From a virus: a stretch of 64,000 bases of DNA. A model generated the notes under the pieces. That model did no database searches. It was not told where the DNA came from and saw only the letters and a program-made list of their open reading frames with translations. The stretch lies in IMG/VR virus record IMGVR_UViG_3300037264_000690, positions 1 to 64,000 of that record, one strand, 5' to 3'. Position 1 is the first letter of the stretch. Every line of letters begins with the position of its first letter. The translations under genes and the position numbers were made by a program. This document shows, piece by piece, positions 4,503 to 4,849 of this stretch.

Positions 4503-4579
4503 GGCGGTGTAGTGGAGTAGGTTACCACGCCTGACCCTATATGGGTCAGGAGAAGAGGGTTCAAGTCCTTCCACCGCCC
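4503..4579 (+). tRNA. tRNA-like gene 1, atypical anticodon arm
   Basis: The acceptor stem (4503-4509 with 4572-4578), the D-stem GTGG/CCAC and a T-arm with loop TTCAAGT are all present. The anticodon arm is 21 nt instead of 17: CCTGACC pairs with GGTCAGG for 7 bp around the loop CTATATG (or 8 bp around TATAT). With a 7-nt loop the anticodon would be ATA, but the lengthened stem makes decoding doubtful. First of a closely spaced series. Confidence 0.6.
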
Positions 4580-4583
4580 ACAA

Positions 4584-4675
4584 GATCGGGTAGCTCAGTT
4601 GGCTAGAGCAATGCCACGCCGGACATCGATAGGTGTAAGGCAGGCAGGTCGCAGGTTCGAATCCTGCCCCGATCG
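4584..4675 (+). tRNA. tRNA-like gene 2, inserted hairpin in anticodon arm
   Basis: Perfect acceptor (GATCGGG with CCCGATC), D-stem GCTC/GAGC and T-arm (GCAGG, TTCGAAT, CCTGC). Between D- and T-arms lie about 40 nt that make no normal 5+7+5 anticodon arm. The best fold is TGCC (4612-4615) with GGCA (4639-4642) closing a 23-nt loop that contains its own hairpin (4623-4627 with 4632-4636). No anticodon can be assigned. Intron, insertion or non-decoding RNA are possibilities. Confidence 0.55.
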
Positions 4676-4685
4676 CTGCCTGTAA

Positions 4686-4762
4686 GGTCGGGTAGCTCAG
4701 TTGAGATTATAGAGCACTGCTGTGCACAGCAGAGGTCGTAGGTTCAAGTCCTACCCCGACCA
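4686..4762 (+). tRNA. tRNA-like gene 3, 6-nt anticodon loop
   Basis: Acceptor GGTCGGG/CCCGACC, D-stem GCTC/GAGC with a long D-loop, and T-arm GTAGG/CCTAC with TTCAAGT are all good. The anticodon arm is CTGCT, GTGCAC, AGCAG: a 5-bp stem with a 6-nt loop, within an 8+8 palindrome (4717-4732). A normal 7-nt loop cannot be formed with that stem; TGC or GCA would be the candidate anticodons. Confidence 0.6.
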
Positions 4763-4767
4763 CTTTT

Positions 4768-4849
4768 GGGTGAGTAGCTCAGTGGTAGAGCGCTGCTACA
4801 GCCGCAAGGCCATGGGCAGAGGTCGACGTGTTCAACTCCGTCCTCACCC
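4768..4849 (+). tRNA. tRNA-like gene 4, 10-nt hairpin insert in anticodon loop
   Basis: Acceptor GGGTGAG/CTCACCC and D-stem GCTC/GAGC are perfect. The T-stem has an extra T (4829). The anticodon stem CTGCT (4793-4797) pairs with GGCAG (4815-4819), enclosing 17 nt that contain a 10-nt GCC-GCAA-GGC hairpin (4801-4810). Removing that hairpin leaves a 7-nt loop but with no U33, so no standard anticodon results. Confidence 0.55.

Follow-up and report, generated by a model that had tools for sequence, protein, structure and literature searches.

Phages face many tRNA-directed defences. They are known to answer them with ordinary tRNAs (PMC11555353; PMC10264068), and van den Berg et al. (2023, PMC10264068) describe phage tRNAs whose evasion of anticodon nucleases lies in mutations of the anticodon loop; these tRNAs retain a normal arm and still decode. 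In engineered tRNA scaffolds made for expression in E. coli, the anticodon stem-loop is exchanged for a foreign structured RNA while the acceptor, D and T arms are kept (PMC3753655). The first 64 kb (hereafter the window) of the 94,413-base IMG/VR virus record IMGVR_UViG_3300037264_000690 holds four adjacent genes, tRNA-likes 1 to 4, that resemble both. Like the evading tRNAs, they are phage-encoded, altered in the anticodon arm and plausibly linked to tRNA-targeting defence, but with the arm exchanged they no longer have an anticodon that could be used; like the scaffold, they retain the three other arms, although the scaffold is man-made whereas the class described here occurs naturally, with conservation in two phage lineages or more. 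We propose that the four genes probably encode non-decoding tRNA-like RNAs of a widespread virus-associated class, in which a real tRNA chassis carries another structured element in place of the anticodon arm. The support comes from sequence: the bodies are intact, a canonical arm is missing, the build recurs across phages, and two families with relatives show covariation and conservation.

Four intact tRNA bodies with replaced anticodon arms

The Rfam tRNA model RF00005 recognises all four bodies with 44-53 bits against a cut-off of 29 bits (individual scores in Table 1), and their E-values of 1e-9 to 1e-12 indicate pairing far beyond chance. In tRNA-likes 1 and 2 every pair of the acceptor (7/7), D (4/4) and T (5/5) stems is formed. 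By eye, the stems of tRNA-like 3 are paired as in these two, but its D loop has 13 nucleotides (nt); tRNA-like 4 has fully paired acceptor and D stems and the only T-stem bulge, a U. C48, a member of the Levitt pair, is found in a GTC ahead of the T stem in tRNA-likes 2, 3 and 4, but not in tRNA-like 1, which has AGAA.

A canonical anticodon arm, with 5 base pairs (bp), a 7-nt loop, U33 and purine 37, is present in none of the four, tRNA-like 1 coming nearest. As read from the sequence and from folds, the arm of tRNA-like 1 is CCTGACCC-TATAT-GGGTCAGG, whose stem has 8 bp if the loop is taken as 5 nt, or 7 bp if it is taken as 7 nt. That of tRNA-like 2 (TGCC-ACGCC..GGTGT-AA-GGCA) is a two-part stem of 9 bp with an AA bulge, and here the segment between the D and T arms measures 40 nt instead of the usual ~22. 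In tRNA-like 3 (CTGCT-GTGCAC-AGCAG) the entire arm is a perfect palindrome of 16 nt, and in tRNA-like 4 (CTGC-TACA-GCC-GCAA-GGC-CATG-GGCAG) a short stem carries a 10-nt hairpin. The program ARAGORN called tRNA-like 1 Tyr(ATA), gave tRNA-like 2 as unknown and missed the other two. An earlier note on the window had described four tRNA-like genes with near-perfect acceptor, D and mostly T arms and abnormal anticodon arms (a 7-8 bp stem, an insert with an internal hairpin, a 6-nt loop and a 10-nt GCAA-capped hairpin), and two normal tRNAs in the window. All of this agrees with our analysis, with a single correction: the insert of tRNA-like 2 does contain an inner stem (ACGCC/GGTGT) closed by an 11-nt loop, but amounts to ~18 extra nt and not 30-40.

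A class of tRNA-shaped RNAs in viral sequence

IMG/VR viral contigs were scanned for a D arm and a T arm of the standard type-I form with a gap of at least 4 extra bases between them, acceptor pairing not being part of the pattern, and at least 114 distinct matches were obtained. Among the matches listed, 97/114 (85%) have 6 or 7 of 7 acceptor pairs, compared with 4.4% (maximum 9.6%) when 3' halves were swapped; 83 of these 97 have non-canonical arms, and the remaining 14 combine a canonical arm with a long variable arm. All further counts out of 83 refer to the non-canonical arms listed. Two bases that hold the L-shape and lie outside the search pattern are kept near the normal-tRNA level: C48, which pairs with G15, is present in 73/83, and G46 in 68/83. 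The arms fold better than their shuffled versions (mean folding z -1.09), and stems capped by GNRA or UUCG occur in 18 of the 83, against 5.0 in shuffles (maximum 14 over 500). A near-identical pattern gave 0 matches in 201 Bacilli genomes; as a control, a widened pattern recovered 24 canonical tRNAs in three of these 201 genomes and, in two virus records, those abnormal genes that were expected there. Because of the acceptor pairing, the retention of C48 and G46, the folding of the arms and the lack of Bacilli matches, we regard members of the class, which was observed here in viral sequence, as real tRNA-shaped RNAs bearing foreign arms. CCA is encoded less often (24% vs 51%, p=0.0004) and there is a slight excess of C73 (8/90 vs 1/80, p=0.037), which suggests relaxed pressure for charging. 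An alanine identity (G3:U70) for the class was considered and rejected, being found in 4/63 only. In the open-licence papers searched, no description of this RNA class was found.

When a set of class members was compared by blast with annotated phages, three groups were matched. The gene of the laboratory phage phiC31 (NC_001978 31424-31510, between gp13 and gp14) is unannotated there, and its Lilbooboo counterpart is called tRNA-Gly; a tRNA-like gene is said to have been noted already in the phiC31 genome paper of 1999. Like tRNA-like 4 of the window, it joins an intact body to a replaced, GNRA-capped arm, but it is a single gene in a 41-kb temperate phage and its arm sequence is unrelated. 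Across this family of Streptomyces phages the arm consists of an outer stem, a conserved unpaired internal element (AAYCCGGR...GCAC) and a hairpin whose apical tetraloop is GAAA, GCAA, GTAA or UUCG, with the stem beneath it varying. In temperate phages of Streptococcus (EJ-1, Javan phages, LF2, IPP26), a 28-nt arm is nearly invariant. Changes on both sides of a pair affect both arm helices in the phiC31 family, and 4/7 acceptor pairs and two T-stem pairs in the Streptococcus family; the covariation of 0.342 in the former (0.161 shuffled, 0/500) and 0.252 in the latter (0.119 shuffled, 0/500) comes from small sets of 8 and 6 sequences, respectively, with shuffles that leave shared ancestry in. 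Sliding the partner strand almost wholly abolishes the signal in both families. The third group is Pseudomonas phage Milchi (PQ464597), which has three such genes within 5 kb, annotated tRNA-OTHER. As in the window, intact bodies with non-canonical arms share one tRNA cluster, but those of Milchi sit within a larger set of normal tRNAs and their sequences are unrelated.

The earlier note had listed decay among its possibilities, and tRNA genes whose arms drifted once selection was lost might well show a bulged T stem (tRNA-like 4) or a long D loop (tRNA-like 3); moreover, no relatives of the window phage were found that could demonstrate conservation. Nearly all of the 64 stem pairs are nevertheless kept in the four bodies although the arms are unrecognisable, and acceptor pairing, C48/G46 retention and covariation extend across the class. 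Since arms elsewhere are conserved or covarying and bodies are intact, decay does not fit, and we consider it very improbable. The same note had preferred a selected trait to four parallel accidents. At the level of the class this preference is supported: the build is met again in scores of phage contigs that are unrelated, and it is conserved, with compensatory changes, in two families that have relatives.

Decoding tRNAs with odd arms, or with small introns removed before use, are a further alternative, and introns too had been raised in the earlier note. A single excision would produce a perfect 5-bp/7-nt U33 arm in 7/83 arms (0.5 in shuffles) and in tRNA-like 1, where the result is trivial given the long symmetric stem, and the U33-like loop of this gene presents AUA. 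Excision fails, however, in 76/83 arms and in tRNA-likes 2-4, no common splicing signal is seen, and these inserts are much shorter than group I introns. The phiC31 family has a single U close to the 3' side that might act as U33, and Vash has a C there. Decoding does not fit because U33 and a usable anticodon are absent from tRNA-likes 2-4 and from the phiC31 family, and we judge this alternative quite unlikely.

Alternatively, the resemblance to tRNA might be fortuitous and the sequence might act as DNA, in attachment, packaging or protein binding; such a DNA-level element would account for palindromes and for neighbouring terminase genes. Perfect palindromes of at least 12 nt are found in 6/83 arms (0.5 in shuffles; four are one family) as well as in tRNA-like 3, and some class members adjoin terminase genes. 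Attachment sites, however, retain half a tRNA and not both acceptor strands in register, and compensatory pair changes and tertiary bases are features of RNA; such an element is scarcely credible here. A search for neighbouring genes common to the class gave no family more than twice among 62 neighbours. One recurrent arm (L136, L142, L159, L170), always borne by the same tRNA body, contains the 14-nt palindrome CCATGGGCCCATGG, and its outer stem varies slightly. This arm and that of tRNA-like 3 might permit RNA dimers. As a dimerisation device for the class, self-complementary loops were rejected: the palindromes of 12 nt or more outnumber those in shuffles, but they are few and partly from one family.

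The gene cluster and its surroundings

Five tandem tRNA bodies with short spacers occupy 4503-4927, the first four abnormal and the fifth normal (Table 1). Because a promoter-like site precedes a gene of the peptidyl-tRNA hydrolase 2 (PTH2) family and the five bodies, and a terminator-like hairpin follows them, the block may be one transcription unit.

Table 1. Features of the window in and around the tRNA-like genes, and near the tRNA-Asn gene (aa, amino acids).
Feature	Position	Strand	Remarks
CmcI-like methyltransferase	1234-1854		near the tRNA cluster
SpoVG protein with zinc ribbon	1917-2372		near the tRNA cluster
AAA_33 family kinase-domain gene	3486-4058		precedes the PTH2-like block
Sigma-70-like promoter	4055..4082	+	TTGACT-16-TATCAT; 10/12 matches; 1 found vs 0.8 expected in shuffles, weak alone
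PTH2-like protein	4114..4494	+	126 aa; marginal Pfam match; jumbo-phage relatives; PDB alignment
tRNA-like 1	4503..4579	+	52.7 bits; intact body; 7-8 bp anticodon stem; loop CTATATG; discriminator C73; CCA not encoded
tRNA-like 2	4584..4675	+	47.0 bits; intact body; arm ~18 nt longer, TGCC/GGCA + ACGCC/GGTGT, AA bulge, 11-nt loop
tRNA-like 3	4686..4762	+	51.8 bits; acceptor and T arm intact; 13-nt D loop; palindromic arm CTGCTGTGCACAGCAG, 6-nt loop
tRNA-like 4	4768..4850	+	44.5 bits; acceptor and D arms intact; T stem bulged; GCAA-capped hairpin in arm
Normal tRNA, CUA anticodon (amber suppressor)	4855..4927	+	63.4 bits; same cluster
Terminator-like hairpin	4930..4959	+	13 bp; closes the cluster
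Clp N-terminal domain gene	5412-6173		near the tRNA cluster
Possible anti-restriction protein	6527-6859		weak S-adenosylmethionine lyase match, under Pfam cut-off
RNA polymerase beta-prime domain protein	52427-54322		adjoins tRNA-Asn; relatives in Vibrio phage D181 and Salmonella phage Arash
Normal tRNA, GTT anticodon (tRNA-Asn)	54733-54804		68.9 bits

The PTH2-like gene directly upstream of the cluster matches PF01981 marginally (23.4 bits against a cut-off of 23). PTH2 is present in jumbo phages, where it has been proposed to help recycle stalled peptidyl-tRNAs (PMC7824862); the window copy belongs to the same family but lacks part of the GKGK motif. Alignment with solved PTH2 enzymes from the PDB and a phage profile place the loss at two residues of that motif, in the window protein and its jumbo-phage relatives alike. 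The GKGK motif of PTH2 holds the catalytic lysine. With these residues missing, the proteins may bind tRNA without hydrolase activity. The best relative, 45% identical, comes from the 595-kb metagenomic phage LR756511, which also has intact tRNA bodies with abnormal arms (e.g. an 8-bp arm capped by GAAA, L051:14616-14689). Two long tRNA genes of the same phage (L051:13135-13258 and L051:15312-15437) have a common insert motif, ACTTGGA...(hairpin)...AGCATACAAACA; in this huge phage the inserts may form a small family of intron-like elements.

The best ribosome-binding site, AGAAGGAG, suits an ATG at 4105 that is followed by TTG TAG ATG (4105-4116), so the PTH2-like gene may begin with an amber third codon. 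Together with the CUA suppressor tRNA of the cluster, this would make an autoregulatory loop possible. Genome-wide TAG recoding was rejected, as it is not needed to explain the genes. Poor pairing of the anticodon stem is seen in several amber-suppressor tRNAs of phages whose loop is of the CTCTAAA type (L053:8047-8201, XacN1; L056:2332-2403; L070:689-759; L110:2725-2796).

Possible roles of the tRNA-like RNAs

The likeliest use of RNAs of this kind would be as decoys or effectors against host enzymes that handle or target tRNAs. The earlier note had also named decoys (for host anticodon nucleases or synthetases) and tRNA mimics, and among its possibilities these would be our preference. Thanks to the chassis, the RNA would be matured by host enzymes (RNase P, CCA addition) and shielded from nucleases, as in the tRNA scaffold, and the mature product could then act on host proteins that handle or attack tRNAs. 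The arm would either give lineage-specific binding or remove the cleavable anticodon loop; a tRNA without an anticodon could cheaply divert body-binding enzymes and would escape loop-cutting ones. As the arms are lineage-specific, an added specific contact is suggested. The position of the window cluster, after the PTH2-like gene and an AAA_33 gene that we read as polynucleotide-kinase-like, is in keeping with such a role. More broadly, and with slightly less than even confidence, we propose that lineage-specific effector hairpins on a natural tRNA scaffold are used widely among phages as decoys or inhibitors of host tRNA handling or tRNA-targeting immunity, and that the window phage carries a battery of four.

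The main rival is that the tRNA body is a mere stabilising chassis for a regulatory RNA, whose arm would meet its target in phage or host by base-pairing or by being bound, and would play no part in tRNA-targeting defence. The engineered scaffolds act likewise (PMC3753655), the Streptococcus-phage arm is more conserved than the acceptor stem, and the phiC31 arms keep their unpaired element within covarying stems. Within the phages' own genomes, no antisense target beyond chance was found for any of the four window arms or for the EJ-1 arm. We regard a regulatory RNA of this type as unlikely, but far from negligible.

Several points weigh against our own proposal. Arm sequence is not shared across lineages, so a single common function is not demonstrated, and all the covariation comes from two phage families other than that of the window phage. 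Neither protein scans (PTH2-like gene; a 952-aa open reading frame) nor an exact 3'-half search nor blastn against phages found a close relative of that phage. Its four arms would thus be placed in the class by architecture only, and tRNA-like 1 may be a tRNA that decodes in spite of a stem that is too long. Within the class statement, the putative decoy role would merit a confidence of perhaps one third to one half.

Current tRNA finders give genes of this class a wrong anticodon or an undetermined label, or miss them, and an apparently common phage RNA class has therefore gone largely unnoticed. If its members do act as decoys or effectors, part of the old question of why phages carry tRNA genes would have an answer that has nothing to do with codon usage.
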